This document shows, one piece after another, positions 8,112 to 45,477 of a stretch of DNA of 64,000 bases. The notes below the pieces were generated by a model that searched no databases, was not told the DNA's origin, and saw only the letters and a program-made list of their open reading frames with translations. The translations under genes were made by a program, and so were the position numbers. How positions within the stretch are numbered: position 1 is the stretch's first letter; every line of letters begins with the position of its first letter. Origin of the DNA: Actinomycetota bacterium (GTDB lineage: Bacteria; Actinomycetota; Geothermincolia; Geothermincolales; RBG-13-55-18); assembly GCA_014360645.1 (NCBI GenBank), contig JACIXD010000005.1:1-64000 (forward strand), written 5' to 3'.

Positions 8112-8146
8112 TTGGTTGTAAGACAAACGCCAGGTTATAATATAAT
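8112..8146 (+). promoter_or_regulatory. Promoter for the structured leader and secreted-protein gene
   Basis: TTGGTT (8112-8117) is 18 bases from TATAAT (8136-8141); a second overlapping TATAAT is at 8141-8146. Transcription would start near 8148-8153, just at the start of the structured leader. Confidence 0.5.
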
Positions 8147-8148
8147 AG

Positions 8149-8247
8149 TTTTCGGGAAGCTGTGAGCCGCGGGCGAGACCTGGTCACCTGGTCCGCGGGG
8201 AGCTAGTGGTGAAACCGGCCCGACCCTCTCGGAAGGTCGGGCCTTTT
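8149..8247 (+). ncRNA. Structured 5' leader ending in an intrinsic terminator (candidate cis-regulatory RNA)
   Basis: From the predicted transcription start the RNA can fold an outer AGCT/AGCT pairing around a CCGCGG/CCGCGG stem, then a small GGTGAAACC hairpin, then the strong terminator hairpin. Premature termination 350 bases before the coding sequence is a riboswitch- or attenuator-like layout. I compared it from memory with the conserved cores of c-di-GMP-I, c-di-GMP-II, fluoride, glycine, tetrahydrofolate and cobalamin riboswitches and found no match. It could also be a free small RNA. The class is unknown. Confidence 0.4.
8217..8247 (+). terminator. Rho-independent terminator inside the leader
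   Basis: GGCCCGACC (8217-8225) pairs perfectly with GGTCGGGCC (8235-8243) across a 9-base loop and is followed by TTTT. It lies about 350 bases upstream of the next coding region. The sequence from 8248 to 8583 holds no gene; a CTGCCT/AGGCAG hairpin nested in GATCTC/GAGATC is visible near 8530-8580. Confidence 0.75.
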
Positions 8248-8597: not shown

Positions 8598-10100
8598 ATG
8601 AGAAAGGCGATAATAGCTGTCCTGCTGACCGCACTCGCCCTCACCATGATTGTACCGGCGATGACGACGGCGGCAGATGGTTGGGACGGGTCGATTAGTT
8701 GGTCAGGTCAAGGCATGGATTCAAGCCCGAGAAGTGATTTGGTCGGTGAAGGGCCGCGCACGGAGGCCGGCTGGATACACTGGAACGTCACCCAGGCTGG
8801 GGGTGTGACTTCGGCTCAACTGGAGCTCGGCGGCTCCGGGTCCGGCACCTATTATGTGCACGCAAAACATGGTAAAACGCTTCAGTTCTTCACGCCATAT
8901 TTCGACTTGGGAGCGCTTACGGCAACCGTGTGGTACAACGGCTACCTGGGAGATAACCCGCAGTTCATAATCTCCGACTGGTGCGATCCGATTGAATCGG
9001 AAAGGCTGACTGTCACCAAGACCGTGGTCACCTCCTACATACGCACTCACTTTTGGGACATAGACAAGTCCGTCTCCACCGAAAACGGTTACACGCACGA
9101 AGGTTACCCCAAGATCTGGCTCTACGTGGACGGCAGGGGAGACGAGACCGCCACATGGACGGTGGACGTGTCTTACGAGGGCTACGAGGACAGCGGCTTC
9201 AACGTATCCGGGGAGATCACCATCAAGAACACCGGGACTCTCGACGCTGAGATTGTGGGCATTGCTGACGAATTGGCTGGCCAAGAGATTGACATCCACT
9301 GTCCGGAAGAACTACCTTTCACCCTCGCGGTAGGCGAGACCCTAACTTGCACCTACAGCGTGGACGTAGAAGGTAAGGTCGAGGGGTCCAACGTCGTGAC
9401 GGTCACCACCAAGAGAGGCAGTTATGAGGAGAAAAAGGACATCGTTTGGGGTGACCCCACCACCGAGTTCGGCAAGACCGTCACCGTCGAGGACGTGAGC
9501 GACCTCTTCGGCGAGAGGGAGCTGGGAAAGGTCACGGCTCCGAGCGGCGACACTTTCACCTACACAAAGGACTTCGCATGGGCGGATTACGGCGAAAATA
9601 GGGCTGGTGACTACACCTACGACAACACCGCCATCATCGTCGAGACGGGGCAGTCCGCGAGTGCGACCCTTAAGGTAAACGTCCAGGGATTCATCTACGA
9701 GACGGCCTACGCCAAGGGCTCATCCGCAATACCCTTCATCCCCACCTTCGCCAACTGGGGATGGACCAATCCCATCTGTAGCGGGACTTACACCTGGGAC
9801 CTCTGGGCCGGCGCCGCGAAGTGCGACACCAGCAAGGGCACGCTGGTCGGCTCGGTTACGGTGACATACCCCTCCGATGGCTGCGTAACCGTTGATTACA
9901 ACGTATCAACACCCAACATCCTCAAGGAAACCCACGTGTACGCGGGTTATGACATATTCCCCAAGGTGTTGTCGGGCAAGCGTTGGGTGTACACCGTCGC
10001 ACCGGGGCAGTACTACAATGACAGCCCGTTCAACGGCAGCCAGGTCTACGTCATAGCCCACGCGGTGGTCGGTATCCCCGACCCGAATTTTGGCCCCTGA
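8598..10100 (+). CDS. Large secreted protein with beta-sandwich repeats
   Basis: The protein has 500 residues. It starts with a clear Sec signal peptide (MRKAIIAVLLTALALTMIVP, cleavage likely after the TTAA segment). The rest is rich in Thr, Asp, Gly, Trp and Tyr, with repeating beta-strand patterns such as SGEITIKNTGTLDAEI and YDNTAIIVETGQSASATL, similar to DUF11/Ig-like adhesion modules. Only four or so cysteines are present, and there is no LPXTG motif or C-terminal membrane helix, so it is probably released or loosely attached. AAAGGAGG precedes the ATG by 5-7 bases. It follows a terminated leader and is closed by a strong terminator, so it is monocistronic. Its function is unknown. Confidence 0.75.
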   Translation: MRKAIIAVLLTALALTMIVPAMTTAADGWDGSISWSGQGMDSSPRSDLVGEGPRTEAGWIHWNVTQAGGVTSAQLELGGSGSGTYYVHAKHGKTLQFFTPYFDLGALTATVWYNGYLGDNPQFIISDWCDPIESERLTVTKTVVTSYIRTHFWDIDKSVSTENGYTHEGYPKIWLYVDGRGDETATWTVDVSYEGYEDSGFNVSGEITIKNTGTLDAEIVGIADELAGQEIDIHCPEELPFTLAVGETLTCTYSVDVEGKVEGSNVVTVTTKRGSYEEKKDIVWGDPTTEFGKTVTVEDVSDLFGERELGKVTAPSGDTFTYTKDFAWADYGENRAGDYTYDNTAIIVETGQSASATLKVNVQGFIYETAYAKGSSAIPFIPTFANWGWTNPICSGTYTWDLWAGAAKCDTSKGTLVGSVTVTYPSDGCVTVDYNVSTPNILKETHVYAGYDIFPKVLSGKRWVYTVAPGQYYNDSPFNGSQVYVIAHAVVGIPDPNFGP

Positions 10101-36160: not shown

Positions 36161-38128
36161 CTATTCCCCCAGGGTGATCTCCTCGATCACCTCCGCTCCG
36201 AAGATGTCCTTGACCAGCTTCACCCTGCCCGCATCGTGCCCCTCGGCCGCGGCGCCGGCGTAGGGCCCGCGCCTGCCGGTCCTCTCCGGCTCGCCGCGCT
36301 CCCTGACAGGGGCGGTCTCCGGGGGTGCCTCTTCCTCTTCCTCCTCCGTCTCGGCCGGTCCCCTCTTCTCCGCGGCCTCTCTTTCCGGCCCGCTTCCCTT
36401 CGCCGTCCCGGGCTCCTCCGCCGGCGCGGCCGCCTTCCCTGCCGGCACCTCGCGCTCCCGCTCCACGCGCTCCGCCGCCTTCTCCTTTTCCCGCCCGGCG
36501 GGGGGTCGCGGAACGCCTTTCGAGCCCTCCTCCAGCCTCGTTATCACCTTCAGCCCGACGCCCAGCACCTCTTCCAGCGCGGCCTCGAGCACTTCCTTGT
36601 TGGCATCTTTTTCCATCTCGCCGCGGTGGAACGAGCGTTCCGGCGGGAAGGAGAGCACCAGCTCCCCTCCCTCCACCTCCGCCGGCCTGCCTTCCAGCAG
36701 GAGGGCGTGCACGGTTATCTTCCTCTCCTTCACGCGCTCCCTGATCTGGGGCCAGGACCTCTTCACCGTCGCCACGTCCAGCGGCATTCCGGCGGGCTGC
36801 TCCGCGTACGGACGCCCCGCCGCCTCCTCGCGCCGTTCCGGCGGCCTCTCCACCGACGGCGCGTCCGGGGGTTTTTCCGCGCTCTTTCCGGCCCCGGCTG
36901 TCCCACGCGGCGCGGCTGGGGGAGCCTTCGCGGCCGGCCTTTCCGCTTCCGCCGCCGAGAGGGCGCCCCGGCGCGCCATCCTCTCCAGCTCTCCCTCCAA
37001 CCTCTCCACACGCGCCAGGATGGCCTCGGGAGCGGGATCGAGCTCCGCCACCGCCATGCCCACCAGGGCGCTCTCCAGCAGGAGCCGGGGCGAGGAATCG
37101 GAGCGCATCTCCCTCTCCGCCTCCGCGAGGGCGGCGATGAAGTGGTGGAGACGCCCGGCGGGGATGCTCTCGGACTGCTCGCGCATGCTCGCGTAGGCCT
37201 CCTCGTCCACCTCCAGCTCCTCGGAAGAGAAGCCGGCTTGCTGGAGAAGCAGGACCTTGCGGAAGTGCTCCCGCGCACCGCGCGCGAACTGAGCCAGGTC
37301 CTTTCCCTCCTCGTAGGCCCTTTCCACCACCGCCAACGCCCCCGCCGCATCTCCGGCGGCCAGGCGGTCGCCCAGCTCCACCAGCAGTTCGTCCTCCACC
37401 ATGCCCAGAAACCCCGCCACCCCGGCCTCGTCCACCTCGCCGTCCCCGTAGCTGGCTACCTGCTCCAGCAGCACCAGGGCGTCGCGAGCCGAGCCCTTGG
37501 CCCTGCGGGCGAGGAGGCGCAGCGCTTTCTCGGTGATCCTGATCCCCTCGCGCTCGCTCACCACGGCCAGGTGTTCCGCGAGCCTTTTCGCGGAGACGCC
37601 GCGAAAATCGTAGCGCTGGCAGCGGGAGAGGATGGTCTGGGGCATCTTGTGCGGCTCGGTGGTGGCGAGCACGAAGACCACGTGCTGGGGTGGCTCCTCC
37701 AGCGTCTTGAGAAAGGCATTGAAGGCCTCCTTGGTGAGCATGTGCGCCTCGTCCAGGATATACACCTTGATGCGCGCCGAGGCGGGAGAGAACACCACGC
37801 GCTCCCTCAGGTCGCGGATGTCGTCTATGCCGCGATTGGAGGCGGCGTCCACCTCCACCACGTCCACCGAGGTTCCCTCGGTTATCTCCCTGCAAGGCGC
37901 ACAGCGGTTGCAGGGGTTGGGGGTGGGTCCTTCCTCGCAGTTCAGGGCCTTGGCCAGGATGCGCGCGGTGCTCGTCTTCCCGGTCCCCCGCGGCCCGGTG
38001 AAGAGGTAGGCGTGGGAGAAGTTCCCGTTGCGCAGGGAATTCGCCAGGGTACGGGTGACGTATTCCTGCCCCAGCACCTCCTCAAAGTTCTGGGGCCGCC
38101 ATTTCCTGTACAGCGCCACGTAAGCCAT
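36161..38128 (-). CDS. dnaX: DNA polymerase III subunits gamma and tau
   Basis: The protein has 655 residues from ATG 38128 (GGGAG 6 bases upstream; an ATG two codons earlier is too close to it). AAA+ motifs: FTGPRGTGKTSTAR, zinc cysteines CEEGPTPNPCNRCAPC, DEAHML and the sensor/arginine-finger segment ILSRCQRYDF. The C-terminal half (about 370-655) is Ala/Glu/Pro-rich and low in complexity, as in many tau tails. It is the clamp-loader motor. It lies directly downstream of the SRP RNA gene on the same strand. Confidence 0.96.
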   Translation of the reverse strand: MAYVALYRKWRPQNFEEVLGQEYVTRTLANSLRNGNFSHAYLFTGPRGTGKTSTARILAKALNCEEGPTPNPCNRCAPCREITEGTSVDVVEVDAASNRGIDDIRDLRERVVFSPASARIKVYILDEAHMLTKEAFNAFLKTLEEPPQHVVFVLATTEPHKMPQTILSRCQRYDFRGVSAKRLAEHLAVVSEREGIRITEKALRLLARRAKGSARDALVLLEQVASYGDGEVDEAGVAGFLGMVEDELLVELGDRLAAGDAAGALAVVERAYEEGKDLAQFARGAREHFRKVLLLQQAGFSSEELEVDEEAYASMREQSESIPAGRLHHFIAALAEAEREMRSDSSPRLLLESALVGMAVAELDPAPEAILARVERLEGELERMARRGALSAAEAERPAAKAPPAAPRGTAGAGKSAEKPPDAPSVERPPERREEAAGRPYAEQPAGMPLDVATVKRSWPQIRERVKERKITVHALLLEGRPAEVEGGELVLSFPPERSFHRGEMEKDANKEVLEAALEEVLGVGLKVITRLEEGSKGVPRPPAGREKEKAAERVEREREVPAGKAAAPAEEPGTAKGSGPEREAAEKRGPAETEEEEEEAPPETAPVRERGEPERTGRRGPYAGAAAEGHDAGRVKLVKDIFGAEVIEEITLGE

Positions 38129-38193
38129 GGTCATCTCCCGCTCGCCGGGATGCGTCCGGCCCCCACCGCCGGGCGTCGTTCAAATATACAGGT

Positions 38194-38467
38194 GTGATCG
38201 TGCACCCTTCCTCGACTCCCGGCCCCAAGCGCTACACGGGTAGTTGGCTCCGGACAGGTTGATCTGCGGCACACGAGAAGATTTGCTTACCGCTGCTTCC
38301 TTCCGGACCTGACGGGGTTCGCAAGTTCCCGTTGCGCAGGACCCGACCTTCAACACCACTTGCCTGTGCGCAATACTCAAGACCGGAGAGCCTCAGTTGG
38401 GGATTCGGCCCCGCTGTAGCGGATTGCGGGTTCAGGGCACCGCTAGCTCCCCGCTTAGCACGATCAC
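38194..38467 (-). ncRNA. ffs: Signal recognition particle RNA, large (Alu-containing) type
   Basis: On the minus strand the conserved domain IV hairpin GTCAGGTCCGGAAGGAAGCA is present, with GCAGCG following. The two ends are complementary (5' GTGATCGTGC against 3' GTGCACGATCAC). The total length of about 274 nt is that of the long Gram-positive SRP RNA with a 5'/3' Alu domain. It forms SRP with Ffh. It immediately precedes dnaX, as in many Gram-positive genomes. Confidence 0.95.
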
Positions 38468-38479: not shown

Positions 38480-38906
38480 TCACGGGGCGGCGACGTGGTA
38501 GCGGAGCAGCGCGGATCGCCTTGCCTGGAGGGATGGCGGGCTCCCGGTCATCCCCGGCCCGGAAGGCACGGGTGGAGCCGACGCGATCCCGGACGACCGT
38601 TCCGGATACGGCCGCGCGACGCTCGGCCCTTGACGCCCACGCCATGGCACGGGAGGCAAGCCAACACGCCAGGGCGGACCGCCCGCCGGTCGGCGCCGTT
38701 CCGCCCTGGCGAAGGGCATGCGTCGATCCTTCCCGCTGCCGGCGGCGCATTCCGGGGGCGCTTCCCGACGACTCCGGGCCGGGGGGCGTCGTCGGCGGAG
38801 GGGACGGTTCGAGGCCAAGGCCGGCTGCGCATCTGCAAGGGCGGCGAGGAGAGGGAGGCCGAAGTGTATAATAATAGAACGGTAGGGCGGTACGGCGGGA
38901 GGAACG
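38480..38906. other. Divergent intergenic region between ffs and the KaiC-like operon
   Basis: There is no gene here. A TATAAT box on the plus strand at 38867-38872 lies about 35 bases before the ATG at 38907 and probably drives the six-gene signalling operon. No -35 consensus is seen at the expected position. Confidence 0.45.
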
Positions 38907-39719
38907 ATGGGTGAAAGCGAGTTCGGGGAAAGGGTGTCCACCGGCAACACCGAGCTGGACGCCATGATGGACGGAGGCCTGCTCCGTGGATCGGTGACCT
39001 TGGTGACCGGAGCCCCGGGGACTGGCAAGACCTGCCTGGGCCTGCAGTTCATCTATCGCGGCATCACGGAAATGGAGGAACCGGGCCTCATCGTGACCTT
39101 CGAGCATTTCCCCAAGAAACTGCTGCGCGACGCTTACTCCCTGGGCTTCGACCTCCCGGAGATGGAGCGGAGGGGGATGCTGCGCATCCTCTTCACCTCG
39201 CCAGAGATCTTCTTCGAGCAGGCACAGGCGTCCGGAGGCCTGCTGGACACCATGGTGGAGGAGCTGGGGGCACGGCGCGTGCTCATCGACTCCATCTCCC
39301 ACCTGGAACGGCTGACGCGTGACCCGGTGAGGCTGAGGGAGGTGGCCTTCACCTTCGTCAACGCCCTCCTCCGCCACGGGCTCACCGCGGTGGTGACGCA
39401 GGAGGACCCGGACATCACCGGGGACATGGCCGCCGCCCAGTACGGCATATCCTACCTGGTGGACGCGGTGATCGTGCTGCGCTACGTGGAGCTCGATTCC
39501 AGCATCGGCAGGGCCATCCTGGTGCTCAAGCAGCGCGCCAGCTCCCACGACAAGAGGATCAGGGAGTTCCGCATCTCCACCGGCGGTATCGCCATCGGCG
39601 ACCCCTTCACGGACCGAGAGGGAGTGCTGTCGGGGTTGCCGCGCAAGCGGGAGGTAGAGGCGTTCGTGGAGGTTTTCGGCAGGAAGGGCAAGTCATCTTC
39701 CAAGGGGGAGGTGGGATGA
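38907..39719 (+). CDS. KaiC/RAD55-like RecA-superfamily ATPase (single domain)
   Basis: The protein has 270 residues. It opens with STGNTELDAMMDGGLLRGSV, the KaiC/RadA lead-in. Walker A is GAPGTGKT, the Walker B strand is RRVLIDSISHL, and the catalytic carboxylate segment is VTFEHFPKK. The C-terminus has the family's SSHDKRIREFRISTGGI. Only one ATPase domain is present and there is no HTH, unlike circadian KaiC. Such single-domain KaiC-like proteins are frequent beside two-component genes. It is the first gene of the operon (GGAGGAACG before ATG), and its stop overlaps the start of the response regulator. Confidence 0.88.
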   Translation: MGESEFGERVSTGNTELDAMMDGGLLRGSVTLVTGAPGTGKTCLGLQFIYRGITEMEEPGLIVTFEHFPKKLLRDAYSLGFDLPEMERRGMLRILFTSPEIFFEQAQASGGLLDTMVEELGARRVLIDSISHLERLTRDPVRLREVAFTFVNALLRHGLTAVVTQEDPDITGDMAAAQYGISYLVDAVIVLRYVELDSSIGRAILVLKQRASSHDKRIREFRISTGGIAIGDPFTDREGVLSGLPRKREVEAFVEVFGRKGKSSSKGEVG

Positions 39720-40114
39720 TGGCGGACAAGATCCTGATCGTTGACGACGACCGGGAGATGGTGGAGCTCATCGAGCTCTTCCTGCGCAACGCCGGTTACG
39801 CCACCATCTCGGCCTTCTCGGGCGAGGAGGCCCTCGAGAAGACCTTCCACGAGAAACCCGACCTCATCCTGTTGGACATCATGATGCCGCGCATCGACGG
39901 CTGGGAGGTGCTGCGGCGCATCAAGAACGACCCCGAAGCCCGCGACATCCCCGTGGCCTTCATCACCGCCCGTACTCAGAACATCGACAAGATGATCGGG
40001 CTCTCGGTGATGAAGGCGGCCGGCTATATCACCAAGCCCTTCAGCAAGCAGGAGCTGCTCAGCGAGGTCAAGCGCATACTCGACGAGCGAGGCGGAGGAC
40101 CGCCGTCGCCCTAG
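39716..40114 (+). CDS. Single-domain response regulator
   Basis: The protein has 132 residues. The CheY-like receiver has the acidic pair VDDD near the N-terminus, phospho-acceptor Asp in LLLDIMMPRIDG, the Thr of AFITART and the Lys of ITKPF. There is no output domain. The start overlaps the preceding stop. Likely phosphoryl donor: the histidine kinase three genes downstream. Its partner may be the KaiC-like ATPase, given their coupling. Confidence 0.92.
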   Translation: MMADKILIVDDDREMVELIELFLRNAGYATISAFSGEEALEKTFHEKPDLILLDIMMPRIDGWEVLRRIKNDPEARDIPVAFITARTQNIDKMIGLSVMKAAGYITKPFSKQELLSEVKRILDERGGGPPSP

Positions 40115-40143
40115 GGGGCGGGTTTCTCGGAAGGGGGGCGTTG

Positions 40144-40446
40144 ATGTTGAAAGAATGGTGGAAGACGCTGTCGCTCTTCCTCTGGTTCTACAACACCTCT
40201 GCGACCGCCGTGCTCCTGGTGTATTTCGCCGGGATCTGCCGCATGGCGGAGGAGAAGTTCCAGGGAAGGACGTTTTACTTCCTGCTCCCCATCTTCTTCG
40301 TGCTCATGGGGGGCAGCACCCTCGTCTATTCCTTGTCGGACTCCATCGTGGCCATCAAGATATGGTATGCCTTCTGGCCCACGGCCGCGGGGCTGATCCT
40401 CTTCGTAGTGGTATACCGCGCCTACCGCCTGATGATGGGAAGATGA
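40144..40446 (+). CDS. Small three-helix membrane protein I of the signalling operon
   Basis: The protein has 100 residues from ATG 40144 (GGAAGGGGGG upstream). Three hydrophobic segments are about 12-32, 43-65 and 73-95. It is rich in Trp, Phe and Tyr and has no recognised family motif. Its stop overlaps the start of the next membrane protein by 4 bases (ATGA). Its position just before a histidine kinase suggests a membrane sensing or accessory module, by inference from context only. Confidence 0.75.
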   Translation: MLKEWWKTLSLFLWFYNTSATAVLLVYFAGICRMAEEKFQGRTFYFLLPIFFVLMGGSTLVYSLSDSIVAIKIWYAFWPTAAGLILFVVVYRAYRLMMGR

Positions 40447-40814
40447 GCTACCTCTCCTCCGCCCTGTACGTGGTCGGCCCCATCTCGGTGGCGGTCCTTC
40501 TGCTCCTGCTCGCCGCCATGGGGAAGCGCTTGGGGCAGGCCCTGGAGCTCCCCCCCTACTACCGTCTGTACTACGTCTCTTTTTTCTTTTTTGTCGCTCC
40601 GCTTCCCGCCGCCTGGATCCTGCTGCTCACCGGCGCCTGGGGGCTCCCCGACCCGGAGCCGCTCACGGGCCTGATCATCAAGATCGCCGTGGCCTCCATC
40701 CCCATGGGCCTGGCCATCACCTTCGCGCTCATCGCCAGCGCGAGGTACTGGGGGTGGATCTGGGGAGAGCTCGCCCGTTCCCGTCGCAGGAAGGAGAACG
40801 AGGGTGAGGGGTGA
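40443..40814 (+). CDS. Small three-helix membrane protein II of the signalling operon
   Basis: The protein has 123 residues starting MSYLSSALYVVGPISVAVLL. Three hydrophobic segments are about 6-25, 43-65 and 77-108, and the tail is basic (ARSRRRKENEGEG). It overlaps the preceding gene by 4 bases and the histidine kinase gene by 11 bases. No family is recognised. With the previous protein it gives six membrane helices, perhaps a heteromeric sensor for the kinase. Confidence 0.75.
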   Translation: MSYLSSALYVVGPISVAVLLLLLAAMGKRLGQALELPPYYRLYYVSFFFFVAPLPAAWILLLTGAWGLPDPEPLTGLIIKIAVASIPMGLAITFALIASARYWGWIWGELARSRRRKENEGEG

Positions 40815-42897
40815 CGCAAGGAGCAGAGCCGCGGCGGCGGCGATGGCGGCCGTCCTCCTGCTGGTGATCGCCTCCCTTGCCGCCGCCGTGGCGGGACGGC
40901 GGGCCGTTACCCTGGCCCTGCTCATCCCGGCCGCGCTGTGCGCCGCCGTCTCGACGGCGGCCGCTCGCCGGAGGGTCCGGCAGCCCTCTTCCGCGCCGCC
41001 CCGGCAGAGCGAGGGCTCCGTGCTGCTGGAGGCGATCCCCTCTCCCGCCCTGTTGGTGAGCTCCCGAGGGACCATCCTGGAGGCCAACCGGCGCGCGGCG
41101 GAGTTCATCCCTCTGCCGGGCGGAGCGTTGAGATCCCTCGCGGGCAGGGAACTGGACGAGGTCTTCATGCCTCCCTATTTCGGGGCCTGGACGCCGGCGC
41201 TCAAACGGGCCCTGGAATCCGAGGTCCCCCTGGAGATCCGGCAGGAGCAGTATTATCTGGAGGATTATTCTGGAATATGCCGGGTGTGGCTCTCCGCCCT
41301 GCCGGGCGACGGCGGCACGCACCGCGTGCTGGTTATCATCCAGGACATCACCCAGGAGGCCTGGGAGCGCGCCGCCTTGCTGGAAGCGTCCGAGCGCGAA
41401 GCGGGCGTCTTCGAGGGCGTGCCGGTGAAGATCGCCGTCCTGGACCGCAACTTCCGCCTCGTGCGTTGCAACCAGTCCATGATGCGCTGGATCCTCGACT
41501 CCTGCGGCTTGGACGAGAGCCGCCTCCCGGGCCTTCCCGCCCTGGACATCATGCCGCAGGAGTTCCGCCCCGACTGGAAGCACATCCTGAGGAGGGTGCT
41601 GGTCGAGGGACGCTCCTTCGAACAGCCCCGCGTGCACCAGGTAGTGGGGGGGGCGGAGTTCTTCCACCGCGTGCGCCTGCACCCCATTATGGACGAGTCC
41701 GGGAACGTACACGAGGCCCTGCTGCTCTTCGAGGACGTCACGGAGTACGTGCGGCTCGAGCGCCGCTTGGCGGAGACCACCGACTACCTCAACCTGCTCA
41801 TCGAGAGCTTGAACGACGGCTTCTACGCCATGGACGCGGAGGGAAAGTTCTCCTTCTGCAACCAGGCGTTCCTGGACATGCTAGGCCTGCGGAACAGCTC
41901 GGACCTCTTCGCGAAAGAGCCCGTGGACATCGTGATGCCCGAGGAGGCACCGAAGATCGAGCGCATGCTGGAGCGGCGTCGTCGGGGGGAGAAGGTCTTC
42001 TTCGAGACCCTGCTGCGGCGCAGCGACGGGAGCTCTCTGCCGGTGCAGATCAGCTCCGCTCCCCTCTTCCGCTCCGGCGAGTTCGCCGGCATCGTGGGCA
42101 TAGCCCATGACCTGAGCGAGCGGCGCCGCCTGCAGGCCATGGTGGAGGAGAGCCACAAGTACCTGGAGATCGCCTACGAGGAGCTCTCGGTGCTGGACAA
42201 GATGAAATCCGATTTCATCGCCATCGCCTCCCACGAGCTGCGCACGCCCCTCTCCATCATCAAGGGATACGCGGACGCCTTCCAGTTCGGCGAGCTGGGA
42301 GAGCTCACGCCCTTCCAGATGGACAAGATCAGGATCATCAACGCCCGCGCGGACCAGATGACCAAGATCATCAACGACCTCCTGGACATCACGCGCATGG
42401 AGGAGGGGCGGCTGGTGGGTGAGAGATGGCCCGCGCCGGTGGAGGGCCTGGTGCTCAACGCGGCCTCGGAATACGAGGGGCGGGCGCAGCAGGCGGGGCT
42501 CACGCTGCGCCACTCCGTGGCCGAAGGCCTGCCGGCGGTGAGCGTGGACGTATGGCGTATCCACCAGGTGCTGGAGAACCTCATCGGCAACGCCATCAAG
42601 TTCACCCCTCCCGGGGGGGAGATCGAGGTGTCGGCGCGCTTGGCGGAGGACCCGGACATGGTGGAGATGGAGGTGCGCGACACCGGTCCCGGGATACCGC
42701 TCGAGCAGCAGCGTAAGTTATTTACCATGTTTTACCAGATTGAGACGGACTCCACGCGTTCCGCGGGAGGCCTGGGCCTGGGCCTGGTCATCTCCAAGGG
42801 GATCGTGGAGGGTCACGGGGGGCGCATATGGGTGGAGAGCGAGCCGGGCAGGGGCTCGTCCTTCAAGTTCACCCTCCCCGTGCACAGGGAGGGCTGA
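40804..42897 (+). CDS. Membrane-anchored multi-PAS sensor histidine kinase
   Basis: The protein has 697 residues from a GTG start. Two N-terminal membrane helices (about 10-55) with almost no external loop are followed by three PAS-like domains (about 70-190, 195-320, 330-450). The HisKA domain has phospho-acceptor His477 (ASHELRTPLS), and the HATPase has N box ENLIGNAIKF, G1 DTGPGIP and G2 GLGLGLVISKGIVEGHGG. Since it lacks an extracytoplasmic domain, it should sense a cytoplasmic, redox or membrane signal, possibly through the two small membrane proteins encoded just before. Confidence 0.93.
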   Translation: MRGDARSRAAAAAMAAVLLLVIASLAAAVAGRRAVTLALLIPAALCAAVSTAAARRRVRQPSSAPPRQSEGSVLLEAIPSPALLVSSRGTILEANRRAAEFIPLPGGALRSLAGRELDEVFMPPYFGAWTPALKRALESEVPLEIRQEQYYLEDYSGICRVWLSALPGDGGTHRVLVIIQDITQEAWERAALLEASEREAGVFEGVPVKIAVLDRNFRLVRCNQSMMRWILDSCGLDESRLPGLPALDIMPQEFRPDWKHILRRVLVEGRSFEQPRVHQVVGGAEFFHRVRLHPIMDESGNVHEALLLFEDVTEYVRLERRLAETTDYLNLLIESLNDGFYAMDAEGKFSFCNQAFLDMLGLRNSSDLFAKEPVDIVMPEEAPKIERMLERRRRGEKVFFETLLRRSDGSSLPVQISSAPLFRSGEFAGIVGIAHDLSERRRLQAMVEESHKYLEIAYEELSVLDKMKSDFIAIASHELRTPLSIIKGYADAFQFGELGELTPFQMDKIRIINARADQMTKIINDLLDITRMEEGRLVGERWPAPVEGLVLNAASEYEGRAQQAGLTLRHSVAEGLPAVSVDVWRIHQVLENLIGNAIKFTPPGGEIEVSARLAEDPDMVEMEVRDTGPGIPLEQQRKLFTMFYQIETDSTRSAGGLGLGLVISKGIVEGHGGRIWVESEPGRGSSFKFTLPVHREG

Positions 42898-42900
42898 GGG

Positions 42901-43890
42901 GTGCGGGCTGTTTCGCCGGGAGACCGCGGACCCGCAGTGAGCGACGTGCAGAAGAGGCTCTTTGAGCTCGGCTTCGCCCCCCCGGGGATGGAGTCGGAGA
43001 TGCGCGAGGCCTATTACGGCGAGAGTACGGCGCGGGCGGTGCGCGAGTTCCAGGAGAAACGCGGCCTGCGCGCGGACGGGAAGGTGGACGAAAACACCTG
43101 GCACGTGCTGGTGGAGGCCTCCTACCGCCTTGGCGACCGCTTCCTGTATCTCCGCGTTCCTCCCTTCCGCGGGGATGACGTGCGCGATCTGCAGCGCTAC
43201 CTCAACCGCCTCGGCTTCAATGCCGGGCGCGAGGATGGCATCTTCGGCCGGGATACCGACCGGGCCCTGCGCGCCTTCCAGCACAACATGGACCTCCCCG
43301 TGGACGGCATCGCCGGCTCCTCCACTCTCTCCTGTCTCCGGCGGCTGCGCCATGCGCTGAAGGACACCAGCGTGGCCGAGGTCCACGAAGCCATTATCGA
43401 CCTCTCTTCCCGCGGCATGGAGGGACGCACGGTGGCGCTGGACGCCGGCGAGGGCGACCCTCGCGCCGAGGACGCCGTGCGCCTGGCGGCGGGCGAGCTG
43501 CGGGCGTTGGGCCTGGCGGTGGTGCTGACCGGCGGCGTCTCATCCGGAGTCCCCGAGGGCCAGCGGGCGCGCCGGGCCAACGACTGCGGCGCGGACATCG
43601 TGCTCGGGCTGCGGTCATCGGAGGGGGGCGGGGTGCGCGTGCTCTACTTCGGGAGCGGCGATTATTCCTCGCCGCGCGGCAGGCGGCTGGCTTCGCTGCT
43701 GCACGAGGAGCTGGAGCGGAAGGGGGTGGCGCCGCTCTTTCCTCCCGAAGCCCGCAGCTACCCCATGCTGCGGGAAACGCGCATGCCCTGCGTGATCGCC
43801 GAATACGGCGTGGAAGTGGATCCCGTCTCCGCCTTCCGTCCCGCCCTGGTAAGGGCGGTGGCCGCATACTTCGAACCCGACGGGGATTGA
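42901..43890 (+). CDS. Peptidoglycan-binding amidase-like protein with degenerate zinc site (CwlM-like)
   Basis: The protein has 329 residues, GTG start, no signal peptide. Two PG_binding_1 domains (about 8-75 and 90-150) are followed by an Amidase_3-like fold (about 176-325). Active enzymes have DPGHGG and SLHAN zinc-ligand motifs. Here these positions read DAGEGD (E184) and LGLRSSEG (R238), so both zinc histidines are lost, while the catalytic Glu in VIAEYG (E301) remains. Domain order, cytoplasmic location and origin-proximal position recall mycobacterial CwlM, a non-catalytic regulator of peptidoglycan synthesis. That equivalence is inference. It is the last gene of the operon, and its stop abuts that of asp23. 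Confidence 0.8.
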   Translation: MRAVSPGDRGPAVSDVQKRLFELGFAPPGMESEMREAYYGESTARAVREFQEKRGLRADGKVDENTWHVLVEASYRLGDRFLYLRVPPFRGDDVRDLQRYLNRLGFNAGREDGIFGRDTDRALRAFQHNMDLPVDGIAGSSTLSCLRRLRHALKDTSVAEVHEAIIDLSSRGMEGRTVALDAGEGDPRAEDAVRLAAGELRALGLAVVLTGGVSSGVPEGQRARRANDCGADIVLGLRSSEGGGVRVLYFGSGDYSSPRGRRLASLLHEELERKGVAPLFPPEARSYPMLRETRMPCVIAEYGVEVDPVSAFRPALVRAVAAYFEPDGD

Positions 43891-44238
43891 TCAGGCCGAA
43901 GGCTCGACGTCCTCGATCACCACCTCGACCTCCTCGACCGGGAGGTCGGTAAGCCCTTCCACGTATTCCTTGACCTTGTCCGCGACCTCGCGCGCGAGGG
44001 AAGGGATGTCGGTGCCGTATCGCACCTTCAGGTGCACGCCCAACCGGTAGGAGGAATCCTCGCGACTCACCTTTATCCCCCTATGCACGAACTCGCGCCT
44101 GACGCGGGAGGTTATGCTCTCCACCGCCCCGGGCTGGCATATCTCGGCGCCCTCTATCTCCTCCACCGCCTGCGCCGCCAGGGCTGCGATGGCCTCGCGA
44201 GATACCTCCACCCGCTCGCCCCTGGTCTCTTCCTTCAT
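43891..44238 (-). CDS. Asp23/Gls24 family envelope stress protein
   Basis: The protein has 115 residues. It shows the Asp23 pattern: VEVSREAIAALAAQAVEEIEG, the central VRREFVHRGIKVS, and LGVHLKVRYGTDIPSLAREV. Members associate with the inner face of the membrane and relate to envelope stress or alkaline shock. It is the last gene of the minus-strand chemotaxis unit, overlapping cheD by 4 bases, and converges with the amidase-like gene with no gap. Confidence 0.88.
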   Translation of the reverse strand: MKEETRGERVEVSREAIAALAAQAVEEIEGAEICQPGAVESITSRVRREFVHRGIKVSREDSSYRLGVHLKVRYGTDIPSLAREVADKVKEYVEGLTDLPVEEVEVVIEDVEPSA

Positions 44239-44771
44239 AGTTCCTTCCTGCCGTGCTTGATGGAGCTTATGGTCACCCTGCCGCTGGAGATGTCGAAGCG
44301 CATGGTCCTTCCGTAGTTCCCTCCCGTGTCCTCCGCCACCAGCCTGATGCGGTGATCTCGCAGGGCCGCCTTCGCGGCCTCCACGTTGCGTTCACCGATC
44401 TGCATCCCCAGGCAGGGTCCGGGGACGTTGCGCGGGTTGGTGGCCCCCGGAATGGTGAACATGCACGCCCCTCCGGCGATCTTGGCCTTGATGTCGGAGC
44501 GGCGCGAGCCAAGTTTTTCCATCTCCTCCACCATGGCCTTGATGGCCGTGTCCGCGAACTTGCCGGGGTTGCCCTTCTTGCTGATGGCGGTGGAGTCGGG
44601 GAGCATGATGTGGGCCATGCCTCCTATACGGCGCTTTTCGTCGTACAGGACCACGCCCACGCAGCTGCCCAACCCGTAGCTCGCCAGCGTATGCGGGTTG
44701 TGGGTGACGTAATACTCCGCCACCCCTATGTTCACCGTATCCTGCGGCTCCTGCAAGTCGCTCCTGCCCAT
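44235..44771 (-). CDS. cheD: Chemoreceptor glutamine deamidase CheD
   Basis: The protein has 178 residues from ATG 44771, preceded by GGAGG; an earlier in-frame ATG at 44849 lacks such a site. The catalytic Cys is in YGLGSCVGVVLYD and the His in GGMAHIMLPDS. AGGACMF and IGERNVEAAK are further family blocks. CheD deamidates glutamines of chemoreceptors and binds CheC. The cheC gene lies 95 bases upstream. Confidence 0.93.
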   Translation of the reverse strand: MGRSDLQEPQDTVNIGVAEYYVTHNPHTLASYGLGSCVGVVLYDEKRRIGGMAHIMLPDSTAISKKGNPGKFADTAIKAMVEEMEKLGSRRSDIKAKIAGGACMFTIPGATNPRNVPGPCLGMQIGERNVEAAKAALRDHRIRLVAEDTGGNYGRTMRFDISSGRVTISSIKHGRKEL

Positions 44772-44865
44772 GGCTCCCTCCTCGTCCCCGCCGGCATCCG
44801 CACCGGTCTCCCGGTGGGGGCGCGCCTGGCGGGGCCGGGCCGCCTTCATGGCCTCCCGCCTTCCC

Positions 44866-45477
44866 TCAACCGCTCACCCCCAGTCTCCCCAGTATGAGGT
44901 CGAGGGACCCGAGGTCCGGGAAGAGGATGAGGTGTCCCTTGATCACATGTTCCAGTATGTCGAACTCCGTCTCGATCACCAGCACGTAATCCTCGGACTG
45001 GCTTATCTCCACCAGGATGAAATCGATTATCGCCCCTGCCATGTCCATGGCGAAGCCCGGCACCGAGGGCCGCAGCAGGATGCCGGTCATCTGGGAAAGG
45101 GCGTTGAGGTAGGAGCCCGCGAGGATGCTCCCCGTCTCCTGCAGCGCGGACTGCTCCATGGTGGAGAGCTCTCCCGCCTCGCTGCCGCTCACCATGAGGT
45201 GGGCCAGCTGGTTGGCGCTGTGCTCCTCCAGCAGCAGCAACATGCTCCCGGAGGCCTCGCCGCTTATATGAAGGTAGATGCCCACCACCGGCGTCTCCGC
45301 CCCTCCGACCAGGTCCGAGACCCTGACCAGGGGCACCAGGGTAGCCCGCGGAACACTCAGCAGCACCTTCTTGTCCACCATGGTGGAAAGGGCGACGGCC
45401 GCGTTCCCGGAACCGATATTGCCCACCTCTCTCAGCGCGTCCAGCTGAAGTGGCGTCAGCCCTCTCCTTTCCGCCAT
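44866..45477 (-). CDS. cheC: CheY-P phosphatase CheC
   Basis: The protein has 203 residues with the two internal active-site repeats of CheC: LREVGNIGSGNAAVAL and LQETGSILAGSYLNAL, each with the Glu-x2-Asn pair used to dephosphorylate CheY-P. GAGGAGAG precedes the ATG. CheC-CheD pairing is the adaptation scheme of Bacillus and Thermotoga. Confidence 0.92.
   Translation of the reverse strand: MAERRGLTPLQLDALREVGNIGSGNAAVALSTMVDKKVLLSVPRATLVPLVRVSDLVGGAETPVVGIYLHISGEASGSMLLLLEEHSANQLAHLMVSGSEAGELSTMEQSALQETGSILAGSYLNALSQMTGILLRPSVPGFAMDMAGAIIDFILVEISQSEDYVLVIETEFDILEHVIKGHLILFPDLGSLDLILGRLGVSG

Follow-up and report, generated by a model that had tools for sequence, protein, structure and literature searches.

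An operon of a KaiC-like ATPase, a two-component pair and two new membrane protein families conserved in Candidatus Geothermincolales

The window analyzed here, i.e., positions 1 to 64,000 (64,000 nucleotides) of contig JACIXD010000005.1 (assembly GCA_014360645.1), stems from a Candidatus Solincola-type member of the order Candidatus Geothermincolales (Actinomycetota) and carries at 38907-43890 on the + strand an operon encoding (i) a KaiC-like ATPase, (ii) a stand-alone receiver, (iii) two small membrane proteins (mem1 and mem2), (iv) a PAS histidine kinase and (v) a CwlM-type pseudo-amidase. The operon represents a KaiC-centred signalling theme that is already known, now with two new membrane protein families. 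Its first five genes probably form one module, in which the kinase would signal via the receiver to a membrane-associated KaiC switch. This is based on the co-conservation of the genes, the intact catalytic residues, the recurrence of the module in a second class and the linkage of the membrane genes to KaiC.

Gene organization of the operon

The operon and its probable promoter comprise the following features:

38864-38874, + strand: -10-like element GTGTATAATAA, conserved in the comparison of orthologues and probably the promoter of the operon
38907-39719, + strand: KaiC-like ATPase, 270 aa; PF06745 (165 bits), single-domain, closest to the CII half of KaiC
39716-40114, + strand: stand-alone receiver, 132 aa; PF00072 (97 bits), D54
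40141-40446, + strand: mem1, three-helix membrane protein of a new family, 101 aa; AlphaFold2 model, purifying selection
40443-40814, + strand: mem2, three-helix membrane protein of a new family, 123 aa; start inside the mem1 stop
40804-42897, + strand: PAS histidine kinase, 697 aa; N-terminal membrane hairpin, PAS_4, HisKA (H477) and HATPase_c (Pfam)
42901-43890, + strand: CwlM-type pseudo-amidase, 329 aa; two PG_binding_1 domains and a weak, zinc-less Amidase_3 domain (Pfam)

All six genes are present as outlined in a preliminary description of the locus, which had proposed an operon of overlapping or nearly touching genes with one likely promoter near the origin of replication, and the coordinates agree with this proposal: three gene pairs overlap (KaiC/receiver, mem1/mem2, mem2/kinase) and the remaining gaps measure 26 and 3 nt. 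The mem1/mem2 overlap consists of the same ATGA in most genomes of the order. A single -10-like element is conserved in 12 of 16 orthologues, with TATAAT 24-65 nt upstream of KaiC; it was found by comparison, a scan for the sigma-70 consensus having yielded no full site and nothing above chance. A single copy of GTATAATA is present in the window, against 0.07 expected. The position near the origin is in line with dnaA being located ~20 kb downstream of the operon (contig position 64538). Purifying selection acts on all six genes, mem1 and mem2 included (dN 0.03-0.14 vs. dS 0.39-1.01).

Conservation within the order

The class sample comprised 31 genomes, 18 from the order (families f1-f3; named relatives Candidatus Solincola and Candidatus Geothermincola) and 13 from outside of it (f4-f6 designating sister families). 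Rare co-occurrence of the genes in other genomes had been named as the result that would refute the preliminary description; on the contrary, the core gene order KaiC-receiver-mem1-mem2-kinase was found in 17 of the 18 order genomes, across three families. The exception is a genome of 62 % completeness without any KaiC match, and in G010 a contig break separates KaiC from the receiver. The 13 remaining class genomes contain neither mem2 nor a close KaiC, and a KaiC scan of named genomes gave matches only in members of the order. In one f2 genome (G015; L044:2225-5795, reverse complement), only remnants of mem1, mem2 and the kinase are left and the PAS region is missing; the reading frames of KaiC, receiver and CwlM stay open.

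Among the order orthologues, the receiver is the best conserved operon member (mean column identity 85 %), followed by KaiC (80 %), mem1 (71 %), kinase and pseudo-amidase (68 % each) and mem2 (64 %). Across the order, mem1 and mem2 have diverged to about 30 % identity while gene order and overlaps were kept.

KaiC-like ATPase, receiver and kinase

The KaiC-like ATPase scores far above the curated cut-off of PF06745 (165 vs. 26.6 bits) and aligns with the CII domain of clock KaiC, C-terminal tail included. Walker A (GAPGTGKT, K41), Walker B (D128) and the first catalytic glutamate (E66) are conserved in the family alignment. The position of KaiC S431-T432 is occupied by S182-Y183, of which S182 is not invariant in the order, and an alanine stands at the position of T426.

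The coupling of a KaiC-like ATPase to a two-component pair, as proposed in the preliminary description, agrees with the conserved linkage of the genes and with the retention of the catalytic residues by kinase and receiver in every intact orthologue: residues D10-D12, D54, T84 and K107 of the receiver as well as the S476-P482 block of the kinase (SHELRTP) are invariant in the aligned orthologues. The kinase contains three stretches matched by PAS_4 (Pfam), and its membrane part is a short N-terminal hydrophobic hairpin. The earlier view of a kinase without extracellular domain, preceded by two three-helix membrane proteins, holds. In G017, the hairpin is lost and the kinase has no membrane segment, with mem1 and mem2 still present. 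Ordinary pairs of PAS kinase and stand-alone receiver likewise combine a HisKA-HATPase kinase, its residues intact, with a D54 receiver; in contrast to these, the receiver gene overlaps the KaiC gene here and the membrane subunits are encoded by separate genes.

A second KaiC paralogue of this genome (KaiC-B; L026:8984-10211, contig 6 of G000), with 55 % identity, precedes a gene for a 121-aa winged-helix-like protein. All 11 KaiC-B loci of the order keep this pair, and members of this winged-helix family also occur beside KaiC in other families.

Membrane proteins mem1 and mem2

The proteins mem1 and mem2 are two new membrane protein families: in the search of the window proteins neither matched a Pfam or NCBIfam family over its cut-off, and comparison of their models with solved structures (Foldseek) gave no match with E below 1. 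AlphaFold2 predicts three helices each, at residues 3-40, 48-65 and 75-99 in mem1 (mean pLDDT 84.8; 82.8 for mem2). The distribution of charged residues suggests the same topology for both, with the N-terminus outside, a conserved cytoplasmic loop after helix 1 and the C-terminus inside. Homology between mem1 and mem2 found no support, as their profiles do not align (hhalign P 0.06-0.98, a range that includes the comparisons with memA and memB described below), and a mem1 match in G086 (E 8e-4) was discarded, being a membrane protein with multiple helices that resembles mem1 neither in sequence nor in gene context. The 4TM region of archaeal kinases (HisKA_4TM, PF16926) is not matched by mem1 or mem2; a 230-aa KaiC-linked membrane protein of G255 matches it weakly, below the cut-off (E 0.0025).

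Occurrence outside the order

Profile searches covered the Actinomycetota, with ~380 genomes of the phylum besides the class. One of these, G206 from another class, harbours the end of a KaiC gene followed by mem1 (E 1.2e-8), mem2 (E 1.4e-14), a kinase and a receiver (E 2.2e-50; 56.5 % identical to the window receiver), the latter being placed behind the kinase (L197:1-2794). The module sits upstream of the rpsF-ssb-rpsR-dnaB region, and its kinase possesses a Tll0287-like periplasmic domain (possible haem sensor) and a HAMP domain. The sensor of the kinase is thus exchanged, and the constant parts are therefore KaiC, mem1, mem2 and the receiver.

Small membrane proteins of other types accompany KaiC elsewhere in the phylum. 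In family f24 and in G335, 10 of 10 strong memB matches adjoin KaiC on its downstream side together with memA; a winged-helix gene usually comes next, and there is no kinase. The memA and memB proteins (another class; L201:6515-8513, L202, L205, L206, L199) are paralogous to each other (98 % probability), being three-helix proteins with the shared motif LAxSW; homology of mem1 or mem2 to them found no support (hhalign P 0.06-0.98). In G255, a 6-7-helix gene comes after each of two KaiC genes, and in G327 KaiC is followed by a three-helix gene; both genomes show the order winged-helix-KaiC-membrane and no kinase. Since the G206 kinase differs and membrane genes trail KaiC without a kinase elsewhere, mem1 and mem2 appear to go with KaiC and not with the sensorless kinase.

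A fusion of KaiC with a membrane domain was also considered and rejected: the KaiC proteins of ~430-460 aa in f24 (L200, L203, L204, L207) carry a conserved soluble C-terminal extension with HPFCVxHQ, not helices. The long KaiC genes of L204 and L207 adjoin trp-type genes.

Pseudo-amidase and history of the locus

The operon is flanked by the following features, all of them outside the proposed system:

36161-38134, - strand: dnaX (DNA polymerase III gamma/tau), fixed upstream neighbour, adjacent in orthologous loci; NCBIfam NF004046 (541.9 bits)
38198-38463, - strand: bacterial large signal recognition particle (SRP) RNA gene, between dnaX and operon; Rfam RF01854 (220 bits)
43891-44238, - strand: Asp23 family gene, convergent downstream neighbour; PF03780 (75 bits)
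44235-45477, - strand: cheD and cheC, conserved convergent neighbours kept in orthologous loci; PF03975, PF04509
45515-47665: CheA-like ORF of 716 aa, beyond cheD/cheC

According to its domain order, two peptidoglycan-binding domains followed by Amidase_3 (Pfam; full-length class alignment), the pseudo-amidase is a homologue of CwlM, which is single-copy in 30 of the 31 class genomes. The earlier assignment as a dead peptidoglycan-binding amidase holds: the zinc ligands H, E and H are all missing in f1-f3, unlinked copies included, and are kept by the relatives in sister families f4-f6 (motifs DPGHG, ES and SIH). Upon inspection, no secretion signal is apparent, the N-terminus MRAVSPGDRG leading straight into the first peptidoglycan-binding domain. 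CwlM of mycobacteria (Rv3915) is a cytoplasmic regulator of MurA (PMC4946905), with the same two peptidoglycan-binding domains preceding Amidase_3, no secretion signal seen and the zinc ligands lost (PMC4946905, PMC12723410). In contrast to the mycobacterial gene, the present one stands behind a KaiC/kinase operon, and the PknB-type C-terminal tail motif PTG/TGT is absent in all class members checked. PASTA-domain proteins are encoded in 31 of 31 class genomes.

The KaiC block is located between dnaX/SRP RNA and, in two of the three families, the pseudo-amidase gene, which lies 3 nt behind the kinase gene in most of f1 and f2. CwlM already stands divergently beside dnaX in the sister families f4-f6, which lack the KaiC block; in most genomes of f4 and f6, CwlM is followed by a dCache-HAMP gene and che genes. 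In Candidatus Geothermincola (G016 and G017; f3), the block stands at dnaX, and CwlM, Asp23, cheD and cheC are located elsewhere. Because the sister families have CwlM at dnaX without the block, the latter was inserted between dnaX and CwlM; because the unlinked CwlM of Candidatus Geothermincola is equally dead, the loss of the active site affects the whole order, whether or not CwlM is linked to the block today. The preliminary description had taken the pseudo-amidase as the end product of the system; it is probably an older, co-transcribed neighbour and not a dedicated output of the module. Likewise, the cell-wall link of the operon is probably positional, and a wall output of the system is possible, with gene linkage giving no support to it.

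In a distant part of the window, a cyclic di-GMP-II riboswitch (8146-8229) is located upstream of a 500-aa ORF (8598-10100).

Proposed function and alternatives

In the proposed module, the PAS kinase would autophosphorylate on H477 and pass the phosphate to D54 of the receiver, as suggested by the intact and invariant residues. The receiver, lacking an output domain, would target the KaiC-like ATPase encoded by the overlapping gene, and KaiC may act as a hexameric ATPase/kinase switch that is held at the membrane, or informed of the membrane state, by mem1 and mem2. Such docking is assumed because the pair is linked to KaiC where the kinase differs, and similar genes trail KaiC without a kinase. 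The older dnaX neighbour cwlM would have come to stand behind the module, and co-transcription may have put it under shared control. Loss of the kinase hairpin in G017 and joint loss of mem1, mem2 and kinase in G015, where KaiC and receiver stay open, fit this mechanism.

Several points weigh against this proposal. The contacts of kinase with receiver, receiver with KaiC and KaiC with mem1/mem2 are ones that we only infer. Beyond the order, mem1 and mem2 were found by the Actinomycetota profile search in one genome only, G206, where KaiC is represented by its C-terminal ~33 residues at a contig start, and outside G206 the cross-lineage argument is gene-order analogy, not homology. The decay in G015 represents either natural loss of a sensor arm or an assembly error, and the latter could explain part of it.

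Alternatively, mem1 and mem2 could be a split-off sensor of the kinase, the kinase could drive a KaiC timer or switch, and CwlM as output could set wall synthesis via activation of MurA. In favour of this, mem1 and mem2 directly precede a kinase that has nothing but a hairpin in the membrane, CwlM follows 3 nt past it in most of f1/f2 and regulates MurA in mycobacteria (PMC4946905), and, since the class lacks the PTG/TGT tail used by PknB, CwlM could conceivably receive its input in another way. However, G206 retains mem1 and mem2 although its kinase has its own periplasmic sensor, other lineages have small membrane genes behind KaiC without kinases, and CwlM stood at dnaX before the block came and is unlinked, yet equally dead, in both Candidatus Geothermincola genomes. 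This alternative is thus considered unlikely. Of the preliminary description, the conserved operon, the coupling of KaiC to the two-component pair, the two small three-helix membrane proteins and the CwlM-type pseudo-amidase are supported, whereas the membrane pair as supplier of the missing kinase sensor and the wall gene as output are not.

The genes could also be independent neighbours that happen to be co-transcribed. This applies well to CwlM, but is improbable for the operon at large, considering that the first five genes keep order and overlaps despite the divergence of mem1 and mem2, and recur in a second class, where the kinase carries another sensor and the receiver gene comes after the kinase gene. 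A branch of motility or chemotaxis, in which a CheY-like receiver would feed the adjacent che genes, is suggested by cheD, cheC and the CheA-like gene just downstream on the other strand in f1 and f2. It is nevertheless quite improbable, as these genes share no transcript with the operon, adjoined CwlM before the block arrived and in f3 are found with CwlM, away from the block at dnaX.

A KaiC timer, with the module keeping time or counting as a reduced clock, is suggested by the similarity to CII, the kinase half of clock KaiC, C-terminal tail included, and by the S-Y pair at S431/T432, also present in some cyanobacterial KaiC3 (PMC5520375), but is hardly conceivable, given a single KaiC domain and ring of 270 aa, the replacement of T426 by alanine, the variable S182, the description of short KaiC homologues as devoid of clock phosphorylation sites (PMC5520375) and the failure to detect KaiB in 18 of 18 order genomes by a search that finds it in S. 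elongatus and one sister-family genome. A Kai-type clock is thus unlikely because of the one KaiC domain and the lack of detectable KaiB in the order. Separately, a sister family within the class has a two-domain kaiC with two kaiB genes (G019 contig 3, 381647-383702).

Comparison with known systems

The cyanobacterial KaiABC clock with SasA/RpaA shares the CII-type ATPase as well as a histidine kinase plus receiver, but differs from the present system, which has a single KaiC domain, no KaiB detected, a PAS-type kinase and membrane subunits. KaiC-like ATPases have been proposed as hubs of archaeal signal transduction (Makarova, Galperin, Koonin 2017, mBio 8:e01959-17; as relayed in PMC5847659 and PMC13286277). 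As far as these hubs are portrayed in the latter two sources, they share the association of a single-domain KaiC with receiver domains and a histidine kinase, and in the KaiC-REC fusions described, a single chain combines what the overlapping KaiC and receiver genes encode separately here. The corresponding genetic linkage is found here with receiver and kinase (order genomes and G206) and with winged-helix genes (in 11 of 11 KaiC-B loci and beside KaiC in other families of the Actinomycetota). Compared with the archaeal hubs as relayed there, the present case differs in its occurrence in Actinomycetota and in two small three-helix membrane proteins as a constant part of the module. Literature searches on KaiC with small membrane partners and on Geothermincolia retrieved no description of such an operon.

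Implications

Loss of the CwlM active site can be dated to the ancestor of one order, and insertion of the block between dnaX and cwlM provides a clean evolutionary route to the present locus. More generally, one may tentatively speculate, at somewhat less than even chances, that single-domain KaiC proteins of Actinomycetota are membrane-docked switches, each with its own small polytopic partner(s), plugged into varied inputs and outputs. If so, membrane partners of KaiC would have evolved repeatedly, as two three-helix genes or as one 6-7-helix gene, the inputs and outputs of the modules would be winged-helix regulators or a kinase-receiver pair, and mem1 and mem2 would found a new class of membrane subunits for KaiC. 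KaiC itself is familiar as a clock protein and, in archaea, has been proposed as a signalling hub, an idea with few tests so far; with one KaiC domain, one receiver, one kinase and a pair of membrane subunits, the compact and strictly conserved operon allows this idea to be tested directly in vitro.
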